Assembly (NCBI RefSeq): GCF_949628265.1
Contig: NC_088788.1
Span: forward strand, 9,982,001 to 10,046,000
From: Cloeon dipterum
Taxonomy: Eukaryota > Arthropoda > Insecta > Ephemeroptera > Baetidae
Direction of reading: 5' to 3'
Length of the DNA stretch: 64,000 nucleotides
Shown here in pieces: positions 1 to 60,025 of this stretch; position 1 is the first letter of the stretch; every line of letters starts with the position of its first letter. The translations under genes were made by a program, and so were the position numbers. A model generated the notes under the pieces. The model was given only the letters and a program-made list of their open reading frames with translations, searched no databases and had not been told where the DNA came from.

Positions 1-3000
1 GAGGAAGACGGTCTTGAAGAAGGTGAGGAAGATGTAGCTGCCGGCCCAGTAGAGCACCATGACGCCGAGGATGGTGCTCATGGCGCCCTGCATGATGGGC
101 AGGCCGAGCGCGTAGAGGCACTCGCGGACCCGCTCCTCGGGCTCCTTCGCCTTGGACGACATGTACGCGTAGCAGATGTGCGCCGTGAAGTCGACCGAGA
201 AGCCGATGCACATGATCAAATTGATCATGCTGATCGAGTCGAGGCTGACGCCCCAAAGGGCCATGTAGCCCACCACGCCGGTCTCGATCGAGATCACCGA
301 GAACGCCACCCAGAAGCAGCACAGCACGTTCGGAATGAACAGCAGCGACACCACCATCATCACCAGCGCGGCCAGAACCATGCACTGGATCGACGTCGGA
401 CGCACCAGCTCAAACTGAAATAAATAAAACCGAAAATTATATTAATTTAATAATTTTGGAAATAATTTACAAGAAAGAAATTATTTCAAGCGGCAATGAA
501 AAGACTTTCTGTTAACTTTTCCTTATTAAAACACACTTGATCCCCTTTCAGGCACCGGAAGTCGTGATTTTTAGCAATTATTAGACTTTCAACTCCAGTT
601 AGTAGCACAAACTCGCTCTTCAGTCAGTTAAAACCCAAATTTCATACCTGATCAAAAAAGACAAAGTAGGGGTGGAAGACGGTGGCATTGAGGCTCGATT
701 CCCTGCAGATTTTCCTCAGATCAGTGACCATTTCCTCTTCGTGATTGGCATCAGTGATGTTGACAGCCTGGATGAGGAACCGGGAGGCGATGATGTGCTT
801 TTCGTCATCGCTGAACTTGATGTCCAGAGAGAACGGATTTGGGGAGGACAAGTAAAGCTGCAAAAACAACCAAAAACACATTCAGTAAAACTATATTAAA
901 AAATTGCATCGATAGTAAACCGCGCAGGTTGAAGGCAAATAAATTTTCCCTCTTTTTTTCTCCATCTCGTCTGATAGGCAGTGCTAAAATTTTTCTCATT
1001 CGTTACGACCCCTTTGCAGCGGGGAGTGCGAATCCTTACCTTTTTCAGGGTCTTGATGAAGTCCTCCTCGGTGTCGATGGACATGTTGAGGTAGTCCTGG
1101 TTGCGGTCCACGTAGTTGACGAACGAGCGCAGCCACGACTCTGAGTAGATCGGCGACGTGATGTACGACGTGTTCTCCAGGGTCGTCATCAGGTTTTCAA
1201 TCTCCGCTTGCACAGTCCTGTTCGAGTAGTTCAGCGGACCGTCAACCACAACCTGAAAAATAGTCCGTAAAATCCATATATTGAAAACTGTTTGAGTAAA
1301 AAATTAACTTTCAGATTTTTCAGAACGAAGAAAAATAAATACAAAAATTTTGGCTTGTGTTTTTTCTGCAAAATTGGGAAATAATTCAAATGTCTAATTT
1401 TTATTTTTAAAAATTTCTTTATTTATTGAGGCTATACATTTATGTATTTAAGATTTTCAAAACAGAAATAAACAATAAAAAAATTTGTATTAAAATTCGT
1501 ACCTCTTAAAATAATTTTTTAAATTTTCCTTAAAAGTCTGTGGCTCTAATTAAAGTTTTTTAACCCTCGGGCAGTTTCAACGAGTTTTTCCAGTGTTTAT
1601 TTAATTTAATTTATAATAAAATGACCCCACGCTAAACTGAAGCAATAAAATTCAAATTTTTAACTGACATAATTAACAGGAAATTCCGGTGATGAAAAAT
1701 TCCAACTGACCTGAATTCTGTAGGGGAACTCCCTGTAGTACTCGTCCTCGAGGTCGTAGAACTTGATGGAGTAGGAGTCCTCCTTTGAAAGGTGGCGGCG
1801 CTCGAGGCCCTCCTTGAGGTTGGTGATGCCGTAGCAGGCGCCGGCGAGGTAGGCGGCGAACACGACGATGATGATGGCCTTGATGGGTCCGTAGTTGAGC
1901 GCCCTGGCCACATAGTCCCTGAAGAAGGCCATGGCCACGTGCTCCTTGTTGTCGCGCTCGTTGTACGCGGCGTTGCGGTTGATGCCGCCCGTGCAGAAGA
2001 GCCGGTACAGCCACGACTCGTCGTCAGACTCGGACACAGGTTTCACCTTCATCCCGGTGATCGAGTGCAGGTTGCGCTCCTCCGCGTACCCTGACAGCGC
2101 CACGCACGCCGCGAAGAACGTGATGTGCCACAGGAAGGTGAACAGAACGGCGGTTCCTGAGAAAATGGGTTGAATTATATATTTGAAATTAGTGATTGGA
2201 CATTTTCCTAGGCGTTTGTGGACTTCGTCGCATTAAATTAGAATTAAGTACGTAGTTTTAATTAATAAATTCGTTTTAAATCGTTGTGAACTTTAAAAAA
2301 AATCGAAACTATTCGCTTTTAGACAGTTTTGGCGATTTCCAAAGCTACTTCTAAGCAGCTAAATTTTTCAACAGGTTAAATTTTGAAAGTTGCAAATTCC
2401 AAACGTGTTTTTGTAATTTCTAAAGAGGCAGTTCAGGTTGCAGACAGACGAATCCATTGATGAATTTGCGATCATTTTAGTTTCTCTCTCAATACCTACT
2501 TATTTTGCTTAAATAAATTATTATGTAACGCTCCTAAAGCCATAGTTTAGTAAATTTTTCATTCCAGAGATAAATCAATAACCACGTCCTATCTTTAAAT
2601 TAATTTTTAAAGCCTCATCTCAATTTGAACTACTCCTTTTTAAATAATATTGGAGATCAGTATTTCGAGACACCCTAGACTAAGAAGACATTTAAAAAAG
2701 GCGTCATTATATTATGTGAAATATCCAAATAAATATAACTAAAATAAAAATATCTAAATAAATTGAAAAATAAAATTGAAATATGTATGTATTTTTCTTA
2801 TCCTTTTCCTATGTGTATTATTAAATTTTGAGAATGTATGCAAAAGATGACACCAGCGGGGGACAGATGTGCGATAAAATTGGTTCCCTCTGCGCAGATC
2901 CAAAATGCGGCGTCCGAATATGGGAAACAAAAAGCTCTCTTTGGATTGCCGTACGAGTGTCAAGAGTTTGTTTTTACGATCCGAAAGACACAATTAGTTA

Positions 3001-12000: not shown

Positions 12001-15000
12001 AAAATATATTTCTAAACAAATAATAATGATTTAAAATTTTACTGTTTAACTATTTATATTTATTTATTTTTAATCAAGATTTTTTCAATGTTCTAAAGTG
12101 ACGAGACGCTTAAAAATCAATATGAATTTTGTTTCATTCGCAACCTGAAAAAAATCAACTAACGGCCAAAAAAATACCCTTAAACAGTTATTTTACACAA
12201 AATTTAATTTTATTTAATTAACATATTTTTCTGTTTGATGGTTCATCCTTAGGAGTTTTTAATAAAATATATTTTCACTGCCCATTCAATATATGGCTTG
12301 CATCCTATTTGTTTAATTCCCAGATTTAAATTTGAAGAAACTTAAATTGTAAACAATAGTTTTCAGCAAAAATGAAAATTTTGGTTACTGGGCAAAAAGG
12401 ATTATAAATTAAATGAAGTGTGATCTGAATTCCGTGAACAAATGAATTACATTGGATTATATTTTTATATATTTATTTTCAACTCCTTATAAACGTTCTT
12501 GTTTTGTTTGAATTTCCTCTATATTTAAAAAAAATTAATCAACCCCTCAATTTGAAATTACAATTATGGAGTAGGCTTTTTACTGAGTCAATAAAGCTCC
12601 TCAAGTGTTCTCCAAATTTTTAAATTCCTTGAAGCAGACATAAAAATGGAATTGCTTGCTTGCTCTTCTTTTTCTGCGTTTTGTTGTTTTTAATTCATCT
12701 ATTCAATTTTAATATTTTCTTCAATTTATATTTTGATTTTTTATGTTGAGAAAAAAACACGTGACTGACCTGGCGTCCCTGCGTTTGTTGTCGGCGGCGG
12801 CGAAGTAGACGAGCTGGACGGCGGGCACCGTGACGATGGTGCCGTCGCCGTCGACGACCGTGTTGCCGAAGTTGACGGGGAAGATGTGCGTGTCCCACGT
12901 GACTGGGTTGAACATGACGGGGAAGGTGAGCCTGAGGGTGCCATTCTCCACCTCGGGCAGCACGGCGTCCAGCTCGAGGATGTCGTTGCGGAAGCACTCG
13001 TCCTGCCACTTGGCGCAGCAGTCGGCGTACCGGTAGTACTCGCCGTCGTACTCGGCCGTCGCGTTGCGGATGATGTGGTCCAGCACGCGCATCTCGCGCC
13101 AGATGTCGGTGCGCAGCATGGTGCCGCCGTCCTTGGCCACCACGATGACCCGGCCGAAGCGGCCGGCGCGCGTGATGCGGCCCACGTTGAAGCGGGTCGT
13201 GTCGTTGGGCGGGAAGAAGTGCTCCACGATGCGCCGCTCCACCTTGCCGTGCCCGTTCACAGGGCTGAATAGGTACTCGGGGTTGATCTCGTACTCGATC
13301 TGCTGGAATCCCGTGGCGAACAGCGCGGCCAGCAGCGGCGGGATCAGCAGGAAGTAGGCCGGACGCGTGGCCACCTGAATTCCCAGTTTGTAGAACATTT
13401 TGGCCAGGTTCTCGTCCACCCACGTCAGCCGACATCCTTTGCCGCCCTTCGCCTGAAAACACAATCAAAATGGGATATGGATTAATATTAATTATTTTTT
13501 TAAAATTCTGACATTTTCTACACTTGTAACAATGAGAAAAAGTGTGGTGTTCCTGTTCCTAGAGTTTGCAAAAACAGCTAGGAAATCCACTAATTTGGGG
13601 ATTTTACGCATTTTCCCGAATTTTCCCAAAAAGTTACATATATTTTGTGTTAAAATACGATGAATAAGTTTAAAAATTTATTTAAATTATAAAAAAAAAC
13701 ATTTTTTTAAATAAGTAGGCCCTTCTAGGGCTGATTTATTAAAATTTTCATTTTGGTAATCTCTAATATTCAATTTTTTAAAAGCAGGTGTTTTGGAAAA
13801 ATATGCAAAATTGGAGTTCTTGCGAAGCTTTTCTTCCGAAAAAGTGGCGTTTTTTTGTGAACCCTGCAATTGTAAAAATCTATAACGAAAACATTAAATT
13901 TGAAATGAAAGAGTTGGGAAAAAATTCGGCAGTGTGCGATTTTATTTGTAACATTGTAAATTGTGTGGTTTTTTGGAAAAATTAAATTGCAAACTAACAA
14001 TAAGTGTGTTTTTGTGGTAGTTGCGGGCTATGAAACTCCTAGTCGATCATTTTTTAAGGTGATTGAGACAGTTTGACTGTTTTTACGGGGTTTACTTATT
14101 TTTTGGCAAAAATACTTCATTTTCAACTGCTTGCAATTATCTTATGTGCCGTTTAGCTTCTATTAAAAGCTTTTAAGATCACATTTTTATGATTTCACAG
14201 GAGAATTTCGAACATTTTAGTTTTAAAATTAAATCATATAATGCGCAGAGAAATTATAGTCCATCATATCCAATTCCCAACCTTTCATATTTAATTTGAA
14301 AAGGACACAACATGACTCTTTTCGCTTCTGTTTCCGTTTCAGATTAGTTGAGATTGAGAACGAATTAAAATATTTAATTTTTAAGAATTTTTTAAGATAA
14401 CATAATTAACATTTGGTTTGAAATTTGAATTGGGAATAAAAGAAGCGTATCCGTACTACAAATTTAAACCAAAGGAACAAACAAGAGAGATTGGTACATG
14501 TTTAGTAATAACTACTAATACAATGTTATTGTAAAAGCGGAAAAATCTATATAAAATTAAAATTTTAATTCTAAATTATAATCATAAATAAATGGAAAAG
14601 TATTACCTTTAAAATATTAGTATCACTACAATAAACTTTAAAAAATATTTTTGTATTTTCAAACGTCTACTTTTTTGTTAATTTTATCAACTAAATAATT
14701 TTTTCAATTGTTTTGCTTTTTAATAAACAAATTTCAGCACATTAATGTTTACTTACATTATCGTTGTAAGGTTTTACACAACATCTTTAATCAAAACCTG
14801 GTTTAATATAGATTTTCTATGGAATATTTTCATAAAAAAGCCGTATTGTTCATCTAGCATTTATTTTTGAATTTTGTCCTGCTGAGACAAGTTAATTAAT
14901 TTTAATTCCTTCCTCCATATTATGGCAAGTCAAGCACAGCCAAAGCTTCTTCAGACTGAACTACAGCTCAACCTTGAATTAATACATATAGTTCTCACCT

Positions 15001-43452: not shown

Positions 43453-44288
43453 TTACTTCTCCAGGGCGGTGTTGGTCTTGAGGGCAATCACGCACTCCTC
43501 ACCGCAAGATTTGAGAACAGTGCACTAAAATTGAGAAAATATTAAGTGTTACTACCCCGAAAACAACAACATTTTTGGCTAAAGACAACAACGAACACGC
43601 TGCTGATATTTTTCGTTTGACTGGTTTACTAACAGAAAATACAAACATGAAAAACAAGGTTCACAGCTTACTAAAACGATGCATGCAATTCATTATCTGC
43701 TAAAAAGCAAGAGATAAGATTTGACACTCACAAGCAAGTCTTTGCCAGAATCGAAATCAGAGCGGAGCTGTTCTCCGAGCTCTCCATCGGGAACCTTCAG
43801 GTCCTCACGCAGGTCTCCATTGTCGGACATCAGGGTTAGGTAACCGTCATCAGAGATGTCGGTTAGCTGCAAGAGTTTTATGTGTTTCGTGATTCATCCC
43901 AAGAGAAATAGCAATTTTTAATAAAGCAGCAGGGAAATTGAAACCTACTTGGTAGTCCTCTCTTTTGACGAAAGGCACATCCATGTTGTGAGTAGAAGGA
44001 CAAATGTCCTCATACTTCTTGCTTGAAAATATGTCGATGCCGACCAAGTGAACCTTTGCGTGACCGTGTTTGCCGGTCTTTGAAGTGGACATATCGACGA
44101 TTTTGCAGGGGCGACTCTGCGGAATGAGACTCGGAATGAAGCGGAATGACGCGGGTAAAAATTCCTACGCTTACCTTGAGCATTACGAATCCGTTTTTGC
44201 GGAGGGCAGAGCATTGCATGGGGTAGGTCTGTGAAGCGCCGGAATCTCCGGTTTCAAATTGAGTATCGTCAAGCTGGGTATCTGCCAT
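43453..44288 (-). CDS. eIF5A: Eukaryotic translation initiation factor 5A
   Basis: eIF5A binds the ribosomal E site, relieves stalls at proline-rich and other difficult peptides, and promotes termination; it is cytosolic. Coding exons: 44288-44175, 44116-43949, 43866-43732, 43524-43453, all GT-AG and in phase, giving 162 residues (human about 154). The hypusination loop reads [12 protein letters not shown] (48-59), so the modified lysine is predicted at Lys54. The C-terminal OB fold follows, with conserved STHNMDVP and [11 protein letters not shown]. The extra length is at the N-terminus. A strong acceptor (TTTGCAG) 25 nt upstream of the ATG indicates an intron in the 5' UTR; the upstream exon probably lies in the GC-rich stretch 44330-45250. 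Its 5' end faces oskar. Confidence 0.97.
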
Positions 44289-45824
44289 TGTGGTTCAAGG
44301 TGTTTTAACCAATCTGCAAATAAAGACGCAGCGTCTGAGTGAATGTGTTTGTCAACACGACGACGCCGTGCGGAAGATTATGCGTGCGTAGTGGGCGAAA
44401 ACAGACACTGAGGTATTAAAAGGCATGGCCGAAGTGTACACACACGCAGCCGAGGGCGTCGCTGTCCTCTTGCGTGAGCCGCCCACGCACCCCCGTCGCG
44501 GGGGTGCGCCCTTTCGGCGTCCCGACGCCGGAATCGGCGGTGGGACGCCGAACGGAGGGTGGAAACGTGACCGTTTCAGCCGAAATTGGGAAAAGAAAGT
44601 CAACATGGCGGGAAATACGGTGAGGCCCTCGTGCTTCGGCCGTCAACAGGGCGACCGGTTTATCGCCTTTTTCGGGGCAAAACGGCCACGGAAACGTGCA
44701 GGGCTGGCCGAACGCATGAAAATGCGGCTCCGAGTACCGATCAGCGCCACTCGTCGCCGGCCGAACGGCCGAAAAATAGGCGAAAATGGCGAAAAATGTC
44801 GAAGAGGCATACTCACATGTGTCCAAAATGGGAACTGAGGGTCGCGAGAGTCAATTTGCGCAGACGCACCACGTTTCCGTTTCATACAGCAGCGGCGGCA
44901 GCGGCGCGGACGGTCGAGTTACATACTTTTGACACGGTTTCTTTAAAGTTCACCGCTGGATGGCAGCACAAGACAGCGCAAAGGCTGCCTGAATTGATCG
45001 CTCGATGGGCGGGAATTCGTACTGGCGCGCAGGGAACTTCCCGCAAAAGATAGAGTTGAACAGGTTGCAACGCGAAATCGACGAATCAGAAAAAAAGAAT
45101 GTCTGTCTCATCCATTCCTTTATGCATGCATTCTCCGTGGCATTCTCGGCAATTCGTAACTGCATTTTATTGAAGGCAAGGCAGAGGACGTATGGATGGA
45201 CTGACATGAGCTGGAAATAGTCGAAATAGTTAGCTGTCCTTCCCCATTCAGACACTCGCGGTCGTTGTGGTCTTCTTACTTAAAACATTTTACATTCATG
45301 GACAAGAGCTAAGTGACGCAAGGCTGGCTGACTGATTGTTAACGAAGTTTCCCATTTTACATTACATACAGGTAATGAAGCTCGTACAACTCTTTATCAT
45401 TAATTTTGAAACAAAGTTGAATTTGTGGAGAATTTTAAATTGATCTTGAGTTTTATGTAAACATACTTTGGTCATTTTGTAATTAAATTACATACATCAG
45501 TAGAATGTAATTTTTTCCATTTACATAACCAGGTACTTATATATAATATGTATGTACAACAGTGTTCGTCCCATGTACACATGTATATACTAGCATTTTG
45601 AAGAAATTCCCAACATTCTAAATTCTAACCTTTTCTCTTGCTTCCGACATTCCAGTTGTTTGTTTGGTTTGTTGCTTCACCGCCACCTTTCGTACCTTGC
45701 TGCCAAGTTTCAATCACACTTTTAGGCCACTCTTTAGGAAACGTCTGCTCTCAAATGTACGTTGAAAATTCTTAAAATTGTGTATAAGAATTATAATTAA
45801 ATCTTCCCATTTTTAGATACCAAA
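44289..45824. promoter_or_regulatory. Divergent intergenic region between eIF5A and oskar
   Basis: About 1.5 kb separates the two start codons. The eIF5A side (44330-45250) is markedly GC- and CpG-rich, as expected for a housekeeping promoter, and contains long chance open frames on both strands. A donor-like GTGAGT on the minus strand near 44818 could end the eIF5A 5' UTR exon. The oskar side is AT-rich. There, a plus-strand donor (AAAT|GTACGT at 45756) and an acceptor (TTTTTAG ending 45816) would frame a 60-bp 5' UTR intron just before the oskar ATG. Transcription starts cannot be located by eye. Confidence 0.55.
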
Positions 45825-48431
45825 ATGAATCCGCCAAACGAGCAAAAGGTTGTGAAAATGATCACTTCTATTTTGGTGACCGAGAAGAAATGCATGTCAC
45901 CCCACGAGCTGATGAGTGCGTCCAAAATCAAATTATCAGAACGAAATGTAAATCATTTACTTCATTTTCAGGACAGTACAGAGATCAGGTGGGAGAAAAC
46001 ATTCCCTATGTGAAGCTGGGGTACAACAATCTGATAGAGCTGCTGCAAACTATACCTGGAATGAGTGTCACGAGCGGGATGAACAGAGAAACGCTCTTGG
46101 CCTATGACGCATCTCACACGAGCTCTGGACACATCCAGCAGCTGGTGATGCGGCAGAAAAATCAGCCAAAGAAATTTGGCCGGCCCGGCACTTTCAGGCC
46201 TCCCATGCAAATCCGTGTATGTGTCTCTTGTCAAGAGAAATTTTAAAAACTATTTTCATGATTTATTTTCAGTCGACTAGGTACATCAATCCACATTCCT
46301 CTTATGTGGTAAATAAAAACATAATTTCTCTTCTATTTCATTGAATAAATATGCTAAGCTAATCACAACCTAGCACAAATTCCATTTAAGAGTTAAAAAA
46401 TTTATCTGTTAATTTTTATTAAATCTCAAACATGATTTAGCCGCCACCAAGACAAATGCCTGTGATAACCCCGCCAGTGTACCATTCGGTGCAGCCTGTG
46501 CCTCTGTTTGTACCTTCAGTGAGTATCTTTTCGTTCTGTGGCAGGTCAAAAGTTTGTCTTTAATCCCTAGTATGCTCAAAATTTAAAGCAGATGCAGCTG
46601 AAGGCTAGCATGGAAGCTGCGAGGATGCATCCAATGGGGGCCACGGAGAACCTGCAACCGAGGCCGGTGCTGTGTGCTGAGAAACAGCTCGCGCCTGCCT
46701 TCAAGAATCTTAGCACAAATGCTGGTGGCAGGAGTGTCCGCTTTGAGAAGGAGAACGTCTACATTCCGCACTTGAGTGAAAATAAACCAGCCCTAAGTGT
46801 TGCTGATGGCCCTGTTGTAAAAGACTCGGCCCAGCCTCAGCCGCCGCTACTGGTTCCTAAAGTGGAAAAATTTGTGGTTCCTAAAGTGGAAAAAATTGAG
46901 AAATTTGGTGATGTTCTCATGCCTATGACAGATGAAAATCTGGTATGAAATCTATTTGCTGATTGAAAGGCAGCCCTTTCACCCCCAACTGTTTAATTTA
47001 ACTGGATATTAATATTTGGCTAGCATAATCCTTTCTAAGTCCTACAAATTTATGGCTAAAAGTAGTGGTCAAAAATAAGAATAATACAAGAAGTATTTTC
47101 TGACCTACATAGTGGTCATTTTGTGCTTCGTTTAGAATACCACACTTTTTTCTATTGCAGGTTTTCTGAAAGCCATTGTAAATAACTAAATTTAAATTTC
47201 ATTTTTGCTGAAATTTTCTACCCACATGCTCGAATTCTTGAGTTGGAAGTATAATGTGGTTTAGTAGGCTTTGTGCACATTTGTTTCGGCTACTAAATTA
47301 TTCTTTTTACTTTCTAGAATTTAATCACTCTGAAGAAAGAAGATTTGGTTGAATTCGTTGTTAGACCTCGGACAGTTCGGACTGATGAGCCCATGCTGCT
47401 GAATTACCAGTTCCTAGGAGATGATTTCTTGCTTTACTTTGCCTACCGCAACCTCAAAGGCAAAATTAGAAAAGGTTGATTATACTTTTAACTTTCTGAT
47501 ATTTGTTTTAACAAGAACTGGCCTTTTTTATTTTAAATTTTACTTTAAATTTAATTAATTGTATTACAGATTCTAAGTCAATTTGGTGTGGAATGTCCTA
47601 CTCTGGATTAAACACACGCAAAGCCCTTCTTCTGGTGGAGCAAAACAGGAACTCTCAGTGGCACAAAATGATAGTGATGCTTGGCTACATGGACATTCTT
47701 GAGGTATAAATATAAGTCATTCAAACTCTCTTGTATTTTTAATTACATCTTGATCTATTTTAATCTCTAACAATAATTGTAGTAGAGCTTCTGGTGGCTT
47801 TTTTATCAATACGTAATGAGCTTTACTTAAAATAATTCCTCTTGAAAAATAAGCATATTTTGATAACGTTCCAACTAGAGCGTCAACCGGAATTATTTTT
47901 CAATCCTGAGTTAACCTCTTCCCAGAATTCAAAATAACAGTAGCATATATATGTGCCTTACCAGAGTAACTATAACTTTGAGAAGAGCAAGCTCAACATG
48001 CTTCGAATTTTGGACACACTCTCTGAGAAGTGCACCAGTGTTTTTGTCCTCACTCTGCCTATGGTGAACAGCAACACAGAGATAGGGAAGCGGATTGAAG
48101 AGTGGAACAGATGGCTGCAGTCCCTTAAACCAAGCGGTGAAGCTTCGCTTGTTGGAAGGCGACACAAAATCAACAGGCTCGTTGAAGAGGCCCCGAACTG
48201 TGTCACAATCGTCGACCTGAAATACGCTTTCTTCACCAACCTGGCTTGGTGTGGAACTTACAAAAGGTACCTTTCTGGCCTCTAAATTTGAGGGTTGTTA
48301 AGTTAATTGGAGCTTTGTTCAGCCAGCAGCACTGCCCTCAGGGAAAGAACTTCTCTATCGGCATGTGGACTCATTCGACAAGGAAGTTTGTCTACAATTT
48401 CCTGTCGAGGTTGATTTGCCCCCAACAGTAA
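45825..48431 (+). CDS. osk: Oskar (LOTUS + OSK domain germ plasm organiser)
   Basis: In insects Oskar nucleates germ plasm or acts in neural and germ cells. Its LOTUS domain binds Vasa and its OSK domain, a catalytically dead SGNH-hydrolase fold, binds RNA. Exons: 45825-45915, 45972-46216, 46273-46308, 46441-46518, 46571-46942, 47318-47474, 47570-47703, 47965-48266, 48323-48431; all GT-AG, in phase, 507 residues. The LOTUS domain is at about 5-75 (IPYVKLGYNNLIELLQTIPG, 41-60), followed by a basic helix (GHIQQLVMRQK, 83-93) where the extended LOTUS helix should be. A proline-rich linker, 113-274, contains two VPKVEK copies. OSK spans about 275-507: FLGDDFLLYF (306-315) sits where active enzymes have GDS; MIVMLGYMDIL and VFVLTLPM follow, and the C-terminus has GMWTHST (485-491). 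There is no Long-Oskar extension. The small third exon is the least certain. Confidence 0.87.
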
Positions 48432-48448
48432 GGATTCAGATTAATCCT

Positions 48449-56282: not shown

Positions 56283-56582
56283 TTCTCTGTCTTAAATAAT
56301 TAAAAACTTTCGAAGAGTGCGCCTTCAAGAAGCAAGCTTTCACGTTTTCGCTTTGTTTTTGTGATTCCCCCTCTTCTTTCAAATTCCCTCTCATTGATTC
56401 AATGCATGCGCATGTTTACCAACAAAAGCCAATCAGCTGATTTGTTTATATACATAACGCTGGTGGCTGGTGACTGAATCTGCGTGAATTTCATGTAATT
56501 TTTACTCTTTAGATCCATCACGGACACTTTTTAACTTCTTAATTTGTATCAGCAGGTGACGCTCGAGGGTTTAAATCAAAAA
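56283..56582. promoter_or_regulatory. Divergent promoter region DXO / TSSC4
   Basis: Only 300 bp separates the two start codons on opposite strands, so 5' UTRs and core promoters must share it. I see no TATA box or other element I would claim. A CAG|GTGACG near 56557 could be a chance acceptor. Confidence 0.6.
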
Positions 56583-57284
56583 ATGTCCGGAGAATTCCGC
56601 CTTTGGGGCGGAGACGCAGAGTTCAACTCGCGCAACAAGAGCGTGTTCGACCAGCTAAGTTCGCTGTCCCCGCGGTCGGCAGCGGCGGCGCCAGCCGTGT
56701 CGCTGAGCGACCTGTCGAGGGCGTCGCCGCGGCGCCGCTCGAAGGAGAAGGAGACAACGCGACAGCTGCGCGGCCAGGAGAGTCTGTTCAAGCGTCCGGA
56801 GCTTCCGCCGCCGCGGCACCAACCGCGACAGCCGCCGGATCACCACAAGAATCCGCACAGGTGGACGCACTACACCCTCGGCGACGTCAGTCGCGACGAC
56901 ATGTCCGACCGGACAAACACCAGCACTGCCCTCTCTTTCCTCGACGAGCTGCGCAAGCGGCGTGAACGCGACGGAGAGGACATGGAGGTGGACGGCCAGC
57001 CGCCGCAGCCTGTCCTGTTTAAAAAGCCCGTTAGGAGTGCTAGGGACAGGAAGAAGAGTCCAGAGCCTAGTAAGAGTGGAGAAGGGCCCGTCTTCCAAGG
57101 CACCAAAAGGGTCATGCCCGAATATGTTGTCGGACAGAAGAGAAGGGGTGTGGGCCGTGAGGCGAAGGAATCGCGGAAAGGAGACAAACCAATGCACTCG
57201 GACAGTAAAAAACTTAAACTGCTCCACTTGTTGAAAGATGACGATGATGATGATCAGGACAATGCAACTGTTGATAGTGACTAA
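56583..57284 (+). CDS. TSSC4: TSSC4-like U5 snRNP assembly factor
   Basis: TSSC4 is an intrinsically disordered nuclear factor that helps U5 snRNP and tri-snRNP assembly in vertebrates. Single coding exon, 233 residues from the first ATG (MSGEFRLWGG). Family-like segments: FNSRNKSVFDQLSSL (16-30), the core QESLFKRPELPPPR and KNPHRWTHYTLGDVS (about 75-115, matching the 'NPERWTKYSLEDV' signature), and TALSFLDELRKRR. The middle is rich in Arg, Ser and Pro, and the protein ends in a basic KKLKLLHLLK stretch followed by a run of Asp. The N-terminal third is very GC-rich, producing long chance frames on both strands. An ATTAAA hexamer at 57318 may be its polyadenylation signal. Low-complexity content lowers certainty, but the WTHY core is distinctive. 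Confidence 0.8.
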   Translation: MSGEFRLWGGDAEFNSRNKSVFDQLSSLSPRSAAAAPAVSLSDLSRASPRRRSKEKETTRQLRGQESLFKRPELPPPRHQPRQPPDHHKNPHRWTHYTLGDVSRDDMSDRTNTSTALSFLDELRKRRERDGEDMEVDGQPPQPVLFKKPVRSARDRKKSPEPSKSGEGPVFQGTKRVMPEYVVGQKRRGVGREAKESRKGDKPMHSDSKKLKLLHLLKDDDDDDQDNATVDSD

Positions 57285-57758: not shown

Positions 57759-60025
57759 ATGGCGACCGCTTCAGCGCTGGAGCAATTCGTGAACAGTGTC
57801 CGAAGTCACTCCGCAAGTGGTAAAAAATCCATCCTTCCTCTTGCATATACGTTAATTCGAGTTAAAAATGCAAACTTTCCTTTTCCCGCTGATAAAACGC
57901 CTTTTTCGGACATGCAGTTCTAAGAAATTAACGCTCTAAATCAAAAGTGCCGACACATTGTCGTCATTGTTTTTCTTCCTGGGCTTATTTTCCAATTTAA
58001 ATAAATTAACAAATTTTTCCCAACCAACAGGGAGCTTCAGAGACTTGGCTGAGCTGCTGCCCAAATGCAGCGAGGTGCTGACCAGAAACAGCCAACATCT
58101 GGACAACGTGCTTGAGACGCTGAACGTAAATCAACACTCGCTCGGAATCCTCGCCGTCCTGGTTGCAAAATTTTCCTCGAATCCTCAGCCAGAGCAGGCA
58201 GACAGTCTGTTCTCTCAGTTCCAAGACTTCATTAATGATTTCAACGTCAGCCAAGTCCGCAATGCCATCGACATCTGTTAGTTTTGTATTTTTCTTGAAA
58301 AATACGATTGATAAAAATAACTTTTTTGTTATTTTTCAGTCGCCGAGCTGTGTCACCTGTTCACCAAGTGGATGGTGGAGCGAAAGACCGTCATGAAAGG
58401 CATTGATGTGCTGCGGAGAGCAATTCACCGCATCCAAACCAACGAGGCACAGCTGACCTCCGTGCACGCTGACCTCTGCCAACTCTGCCTGCTTTCCAAA
58501 TGCCTCAAACCTGCCATCCAGGTTAACACAACAACTACATTTTAAGAAGGGGCATGATTATAATATTTTACTGTTAAAATTGTCTCATTCTTTGGGGAGA
58601 AGTTTGAAATAATTCGCTCAACATAATGTGGTATTGCTTTCAAAGGGGATATATTTTCAGTCTTTTACATTTTTATATTAGAAAATGATAAATAATTATT
58701 ATTTCAGGTGCTGGACGTGGACATCACAAGTATTCTCCCCGAATATGAAGCGCCAGTGCAAGCGCACCAATTCGAGTCAGAACACTTTTTGCGTTATTTC
58801 TACTACGGTGGCATGATCTACACAGCCGTGAAGCAATATGACAGGGCGCTCTACTTTTACGAGGTGGCGCTGACCACGCCAGCCTTTGCCGTCTCTCACG
58901 TCATGCTCGAAGCCTACAAAAAGTTTATCCTGGTGTCCCTCATCCTTCAAGGAAAGGTAAAAAATTCGCATGTGTGACTGAAGTGTCCTCCAAATTTTCA
59001 ACAGCATTATTAATTTTAGCCTTAAAAATTTAGAAATAAATTAATCATTTTTCAGCTAAAAATATAAATCTAAAAGAAATTTATAGTTGTACATCTTGTA
59101 GTTTACTTTAAAAAATTCAATTCGCTCCTTAATTTAAGGTTTCAGAAAATTACGATTTAATTATTTTATCTCCATTAATTTCCTCAGCTGAATCCATTGC
59201 CTAAGTACACATCACAGGCTATGATGCGGTTCATCAAGCCTCTGAGCCAAACCTACTTGGACATTGCCACCGCGTACAGCACGAACTCAATCACTGATGT
59301 CCAAGCAGCTGTCAACAAGCACAGAGAAGTTCTTGAAAGGTACCGCATTAACAACTGTCAAATTTATTTTCTGTTTTTCGGTTTCTATTTGATAACTTCC
59401 CCTATTTGTGTCTCTTACACATTGTCTTTAAAATTGAAAAGTAGAAACTTAATTAAAAAAAAACGTTGCAGGGATAACAACCTCGGCTTGGCGAAGCAGG
59501 TGGTTGCGTCGCTGACCAAGAAGAACATCCAGAGGTTAACCAAAACGTTCATCACGCTGTCGCTGTCTGACGTGGCCAGCAGGGTGCAGCTGGCTGGACC
59601 AGCGGAGGCCGAGAGCCTCATTCTGAACATGATCGAAGATGGCGAGATCTTTGCCACGATCAACCAGAGGGACGGCATGGTCGTGTTCAACGAGGACCCT
59701 GAGATGTACAACAGCCCTGAAATGCTGCACAGACTGAGACACGAGGTGACATTATTTTATTTTTCCTTTTATATTAAATTAATTGACTTAATTTTTGTTT
59801 TTGGCATGTCTATCCCATCTGATCACCGCAATAATAATTCAATCTTTGTTTCAGATGACTGTTTGCATGGAACTAGACAGGAAGGTGCAAAGTATGGAAG
59901 AGGAGATCACCACCAACCCACAGTTCGTGAAGAAAGCGGGTGTTGGTGCTGAGGAAGAAATAGCTCCACCAGCCGGAACACAGACTCCCAAGGCTGCAGG
60001 CATCGCCAACACGTACAGTGTTTGA
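57759..60025 (+). CDS. CSN3: COP9 signalosome complex subunit 3
   Basis: CSN3 is a PCI-domain scaffold subunit of the COP9 signalosome, which removes NEDD8 from cullins. Exons: 57759-57819, 58031-58276, 58340-58521, 58708-58956, 59188-59339, 59472-59745, 59855-60025; all GT-AG, in phase, 444 residues (human 423). The N-terminus, [12 protein letters not shown] (4-15), is almost identical to vertebrate CSN3. Helical repeats follow, with [18 protein letters not shown] and [20 protein letters not shown]. The PCI region includes [34 protein letters not shown] and [18 protein letters not shown]. The C-terminal helix contains [10 protein letters not shown]. The stop is followed by AATAAA at 60166. 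It converges with RpL18. Confidence 0.97.

Follow-up and report, generated by a model that had tools for sequence, protein, structure and literature searches.

Oskar is the insect germ-cell organiser; many orders have lost its gene or are not known to have it, and a complete copy from a mayfly makes its role before the Holometabola directly testable. Mayflies branch near the base of the winged insects, and such a gene can therefore inform on the role of oskar before its use for germ cells in flies and wasps. According to Blondel et al. (2021, PMC8662646), oskar occurs in 15 of 29 insect orders, the earliest being Zygentoma, and its working definition is a LOTUS domain, a linker and an OSK domain in a single open reading frame (ORF). 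The eLOTUS type of the first domain is described as binding the C-terminal domain of Vasa via helices 2 and 5 (Jeske et al., PMC5458760). Here we analyse a 64,000-nucleotide stretch of the mayfly Cloeon dipterum, referred to as the window (contig NC_088788.1, C3:9982001-10046000 of a 190-Mb, 10-contig assembly), and firmly identify the gene at 45825-48431 on its + strand as oskar. Its product resembles Drosophila Short Oskar in having LOTUS, a disordered linker and OSK in the same order. We consider it very probable that the gene is the ephemeropteran oskar orthologue in the short LOTUS-linker-OSK form, with a mechanism involving Vasa and RNA that its residues would suggest.

Rebuilt base by base, the locus joins nine exons in phase to 1524 bases and 507 residues, and the start, end, exon count and length proposed in an earlier sequence-only reading were all correct. 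Each of the eight introns has GT..AG ends, and the frame stays open to a terminal TAA at 48429-48431. LOTUS begins in exon 1 (45825-45915, residues 1-31, the first coding exon) and is completed in exon 2 (45972-46216, residues 31-112), which also encodes an eLOTUS-type C-terminal helix containing H84, I85 and Q92. The linker is spread over exons 3 (46273-46308, residues 113-124), 4 (46441-46518, residues 125-150) and 5 (46571-46942, residues 151-274). The OSK profile match starts in exon 6 (47318-47474, residues 275-327) at residue 297, base 47384, and this exon carries a GDD motif at 308-310. Exon 7 (47570-47703, residues 327-371) holds the OSK core, with YSGL at 337-340 and GYMD at 365-368, while the C-terminal half of the domain occupies exon 8 (47965-48266, residues 372-472), and exon 9 (48323-48431, residues 472-507) ends in the stop codon. 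Exon 5 has two acceptors 18 bases apart (46571 and 46589), giving forms of 507 and 501 residues.

The identification is carried by two domain matches. In a Pfam scan, the 507-residue protein matched LOTUS (PF12872) at residues 8-60 with 30.2 bits (cut-off 23.8, E 4e-7) and OSK (PF17182) at residues 297-471 with 56.3 bits (cut-off 27, E 3.2e-15); scored alone, the two regions reached 33.5 and 59.3 bits. An NCBIfam scan of the protein gave no match. The protein thus has LOTUS, linker and OSK in a single ORF, as in the published definition, and it matches Cloeon dipterum proteins, giving the insect origin that membership in oskar requires. The sequence-only reading had named an N-terminal LOTUS domain and a C-terminal domain with degenerate SGNH-like blocks, taken the pair as the mark of oskar and proposed a profile search of the joined protein; that search matched both models above their cut-offs, and the degenerate blocks are present as GDD for GDS and GYMD for GxND. 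Global alignment to Drosophila Oskar supports both domains (z 6.5 for LOTUS and 7.0 for OSK, with 0 of 500 shuffles as good in each case), and the closest solved OSK structures are those of Drosophila Oskar, 5a4a (E 3.5e-5) and 5cd9 (E 3.7e-5). Drosophila OSK itself scores 328.7 bits against the profile, the fly sequence being likely part of the family seed.

The earlier reading had also named, as an outcome that would speak against it, a C-terminal half that fails an OSK profile. The N-terminal half of OSK alone scored 43.0 bits, and including the real C-terminal half raised this by 16.3 to 59.3 bits, whereas five shuffled C-terminal halves gave 41.2, 41.8, 43.8, 44.0 and 44.7 bits. A C-terminal half unrelated to OSK is rejected, as the real half lifts the score above all five shuffles. 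The match extends to position 165-171 of the 202 in the profile, and the last ~36 residues are therefore without profile support.

As LOTUS and OSK lie on separate exons, we considered whether a short LOTUS gene and a neighbouring SGNH-like gene had been misjoined across intron 5. This intron spans just 375 bases (46943-47317), the phases fit throughout, the domain pair is the signature of oskar, and both Cloeon dipterum proteins in the database (annotations, not reads) unite the two halves, contrary to the separate genes that the earlier reading had allowed for; we regard a misjoin as very improbable. The first protein, P0001, has 501 residues and equals our model letter for letter but lacks YAQNLK, six residues where exons 4 and 5 meet; it is the shorter acceptor form. 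The second, P0002 (615 residues, 95% identity by alignment), lacks 27 residues of exon 8 and continues into the next gene as a fusion. Comparison of the aligned residues of P0001 and P0002 shows 1 difference among 95 in LOTUS, 16 among 189 in the linker and 6 among 190 in OSK, not counting the 27 OSK residues missing from P0002. Such a distribution is what a functional protein whose two domains are joined by a loose linker would show, a purifying pattern, seen here by protein comparison and not as dN/dS. These two Cloeon dipterum proteins were the only ones recovered by homologue searches with the oskar protein; Drosophila Oskar went unrecovered even when its sequence was in the query alignment, so the collection says nothing on absence.

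The gene appears to be present once. Searching the whole 190-Mb assembly for OSK returned a single match, at window positions 47384-47476, whose 22.5 bits fall below the cut-off because a single exon was matched. A whole-protein search returned ten matches, eight within the oskar locus and two elsewhere, weak and confined to the LOTUS region, on C1 at L015 (C1:32484831, E 0.034) and L016 (C1:3692351, E 0.13). A second oskar copy is therefore rejected, given one OSK match genome-wide and only weak matches elsewhere, limited to the LOTUS region. Tudor matches lie 2-4 kb from L016 on the same strand, and L015 and L016 may be the true TDRD5/TDRD7 genes of Cloeon. A genome-wide LOTUS profile search found five places, all of them clustered at C3:30.12 Mb, but not the LOTUS of the window itself, which an intron splits; such searches can therefore overlook domains split between exons.

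Several observations weigh against the oskar reading, whether in its identification or in its mechanism. The C-terminal half of OSK (from ESNYNF) aligns to Drosophila OSK at chance level (z 0.3, 171 of 500 shuffles as good), and on its own it gives no match to the OSK profile. AlphaFold/AlphaFold2 models were unusable, with a mean predicted local distance difference test score (pLDDT) of 38.6 from one sequence and 34.6 from two. LOTUS taken by itself resembles the domains of Tejas, TDRD5 and TDRD7 more closely than that of Drosophila Oskar. Finally, RNA binding by mayfly OSK is doubtful on its residues: only R442 of the RNA-binding arginines in Drosophila has a clearly basic counterpart (Lys323), while R436 corresponds to Tyr317 and R576, hand-aligned, probably to Gln and thus probably to no basic residue.

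The affinity of LOTUS bears on the rival that the gene is tejas/TDRD5, a LOTUS protein of the PIWI-interacting RNA (piRNA) nuage, as the name of P0001 at NCBI, 'uncharacterized protein tej isoform X2', has it. Besides that name, it is favoured by the LOTUS alignments, in which Tejas and human TDRD5 come out ahead (18/53 and 19/52 identities, against only 11/48 with Drosophila Oskar), and by a Ser/Ile pair at the Vasa contacts that the mayfly eLOTUS shares with TDRD5. Unlike TDRD5/Tejas, however, the 507-residue protein has a significant OSK domain and shows no Tudor domain in a Pfam scan up to E 10, and the true TDRD5/TDRD7 genes could be L015 and L016. We therefore give tejas/TDRD5 hardly any credence. 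The gene is oskar and the naming as 'tej' is wrong, because the domain pair is present, no Tudor domain was found and the sole OSK match in the assembly is this locus. Such a misnaming would conceal oskar from name-based surveys.

How might the protein work as an Oskar? The eLOTUS C-terminal helix with its Vasa contacts is, as judged from sequence, present. Jeske et al. (PMC5458760) give Ala at residue 162 in Oskar and various TDRD7 proteins and Ser in TDRD5, and Leu at residue 228 in Oskar and Ile in TDRD5 and TDRD7; Blondel et al. (PMC8662646) name H227 and Q235 as conserved in the Oskar LOTUS domain. At the Drosophila positions A162 and L228 the mayfly protein differs from the fly in having S15 and I85, while its H84 and Q92 match H227 and Q235. 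On the Vasa side, the exon L021, from a candidate Cloeon Vasa, carries Phe and Tyr where spacing would place F504 and F508. At the places equated in the same way, a Belle-like paralogue, L018, which we presume to resemble DDX3, has Ser and Phe. We rejected L018 as the Vasa orthologue in view of its Belle/DDX3 likeness; L021 is the better candidate. As S15, I85, H84, Q92 and the Phe/Tyr of L021 fit known contacts, the mayfly eLOTUS likely docks on Vasa.

The motifs GDS and GxND, which we take to be blocks I and III of SGNH, differ in the mayfly OSK from those of active SGNH/GDSL hydrolases. The nucleophile serine is missing (GDD), as is the block III Asn (GYMD), so that the domain is without hydrolase catalytic residues; the C-terminal His block could not be aligned with certainty, and a His in the WTHS near the C-terminus, considered as the catalytic one, lies where the alignment is too uncertain to call it so. 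Drosophila Oskar has GDD and GSVD at the same blocks, and thus likewise GDD for GDS and a hydrophobic residue for the block III Asn. Because both have GDD and a block III without Asn, hydrolase activity was probably lost before the mayfly/fly split, if the genes are orthologous. OSK belongs to the fold family of these hydrolases, and its match to their profile (PF13472) is weak: 13.7 bits for mayfly and 21.8 for fly, both below the cut-off of 32.9. From these two scores, the idea that mayfly OSK is closer to a bacterial hydrolase than the fly's was rejected. The equivalents of Drosophila Ser457, His227 and Gln235 are kept, and R442 remains basic; R436, replaced by Tyr, sets the mayfly apart from the fly. 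The OSK segment carries a net charge of +12 in the mayfly and +5 in Drosophila, and some RNA binding is therefore still possible.

Taken as oskar, the gene would encode a protein whose eLOTUS uses helices 2 and 5 to dock on Vasa at its C-terminal RecA domain, stimulating the Vasa helicase cycle. OSK would be a catalytically dead SGNH fold serving as scaffold and RNA contact, and with a proline-rich linker connecting the two domains, Oskar could collect Vasa and bound RNA into granules. The analogy of other hemimetabolous insects leads us to expect this in the ovary and nervous system and not in a posterior germ plasm. A related account accepts the gene as oskar and gives it a somatic role in the mayfly, neural for example, with none in germ-cell formation. 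Blondel et al. (PMC8662646) report that the charge at the R436, R442 and R576 sites is kept in Holometabola but not in Hemimetabola, and the loss of R436 and R576 here fits that pattern. A 2011 commentary (PMC3084209) states that no germ plasm is reported for hemimetabolous insects, mayflies being named. The Vasa-docking residues are retained, however, and gonad expression is reported in several orders, including Phasmatodea (PMC8662646). We see a purely somatic role as a serious contender, with a probability somewhat short of even.

The sequence-only reading had further proposed that the species lacks the Long-Oskar extension and so may keep the older form of the gene. A contiguous extension of the Drosophila type is excluded by an in-frame TAA at 45798-45800, 27 nt 5' of the ATG; this exclusion does not reach an extension spliced from farther upstream. 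As the text of PMC8662646 has it, Long Oskar is limited to a subset of Diptera and its lack elsewhere is the rule, and for this reason its absence says little on an older form. Other differences from Drosophila Oskar are the eight coding introns and the C-terminal part of OSK, which cannot be aligned pairwise. Support for an older form is mixed. In its favour, the mayfly LOTUS outscores that of the fly against all four other LOTUS domains (Tejas 89 against 33, TDRD5 88 against 60, TDRD7 78 against 73, Cloeon L015 87 against 17), and it retains four residues (YVKL..) that Drosophila Oskar is without. On the other side, the LOTUS Pfam scores are equal (33.5 bits for mayfly, 33.8 for fly), percent identity with TDRD7 favours the fly (38 against 32%) and the mayfly OSK is the less hydrolase-like. 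We tentatively put forward, as a minority possibility, an early Oskar with a TDRD5-type Vasa-docking LOTUS and an already catalytically dead OSK, in which the fly RNA-binding arginines had not yet been gained. If true, Oskar began as a Vasa regulator and not as an RNA-anchoring nucleator of germ plasm, and both hydrolase loss and Vasa docking would be older than the Palaeoptera/Neoptera split.

This is an ordinary gene in an informative position, the value of a mayfly oskar being its place on the tree. Our literature search, covering titles, abstract openings and term occurrences, brought up no paper naming a mayfly oskar there. The text of Blondel et al. 2021 (PMC8662646) contains none of the terms 'Ephemeroptera', 'mayfl', 'Palaeoptera', 'Odonata' and 'Cloeon'. 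It counts six hemimetabolous orders and names Plecoptera, Orthoptera, Phasmatodea, Blattodea and Thysanoptera; the sixth could be the mayflies. A 2026 screen of 181 species (PMC13389597) describes oskar as 'spanning Pterygota' and may include a mayfly oskar. Germ-cell data from Palaeoptera (mayflies, dragonflies and damselflies) are called especially useful in a 2026 review (PMC13120685), and embryonic RNA sequencing (RNA-seq) and chromatin accessibility data (ATAC-seq) for Cloeon dipterum are published (PMC11491810).

The oskar stop codon overlaps a GTAAGG donor (48428-48433, +), which joins in frame to 50164 in the annotated fusion P0002. The fusion acceptor (TTCAG) sits one base before the ATG of the next gene, and P0002 is annotated as exactly such a fusion; it is either a real read-through isoform or a prediction artefact. 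Read-through splicing of this kind may make an alternative Oskar C-terminus. The next gene, from 50165 onward (+), is prefoldin-like (Prefoldin_2, 18.6 bits against a cut-off of 27.6) and presumably resembles PDRG1. Upstream, a divergent neighbour at 44288 to 43453 (-) is eIF5A-like, with 29.8 bits to IF5A-like_N for its first 38 residues. Farther downstream, open frames at 56535-57281 (+) and 59179-59949 (+) contain a TSSC4 domain (95.5 bits) and a PCI domain (56.5 bits), respectively. Near the start of the window, 1663-2232 (-) matches the Sterol-sensing profile weakly (17.1 bits against a cut-off of 22.3), and 12724-13464, which gave no match, perhaps belongs to the same larger membrane protein.
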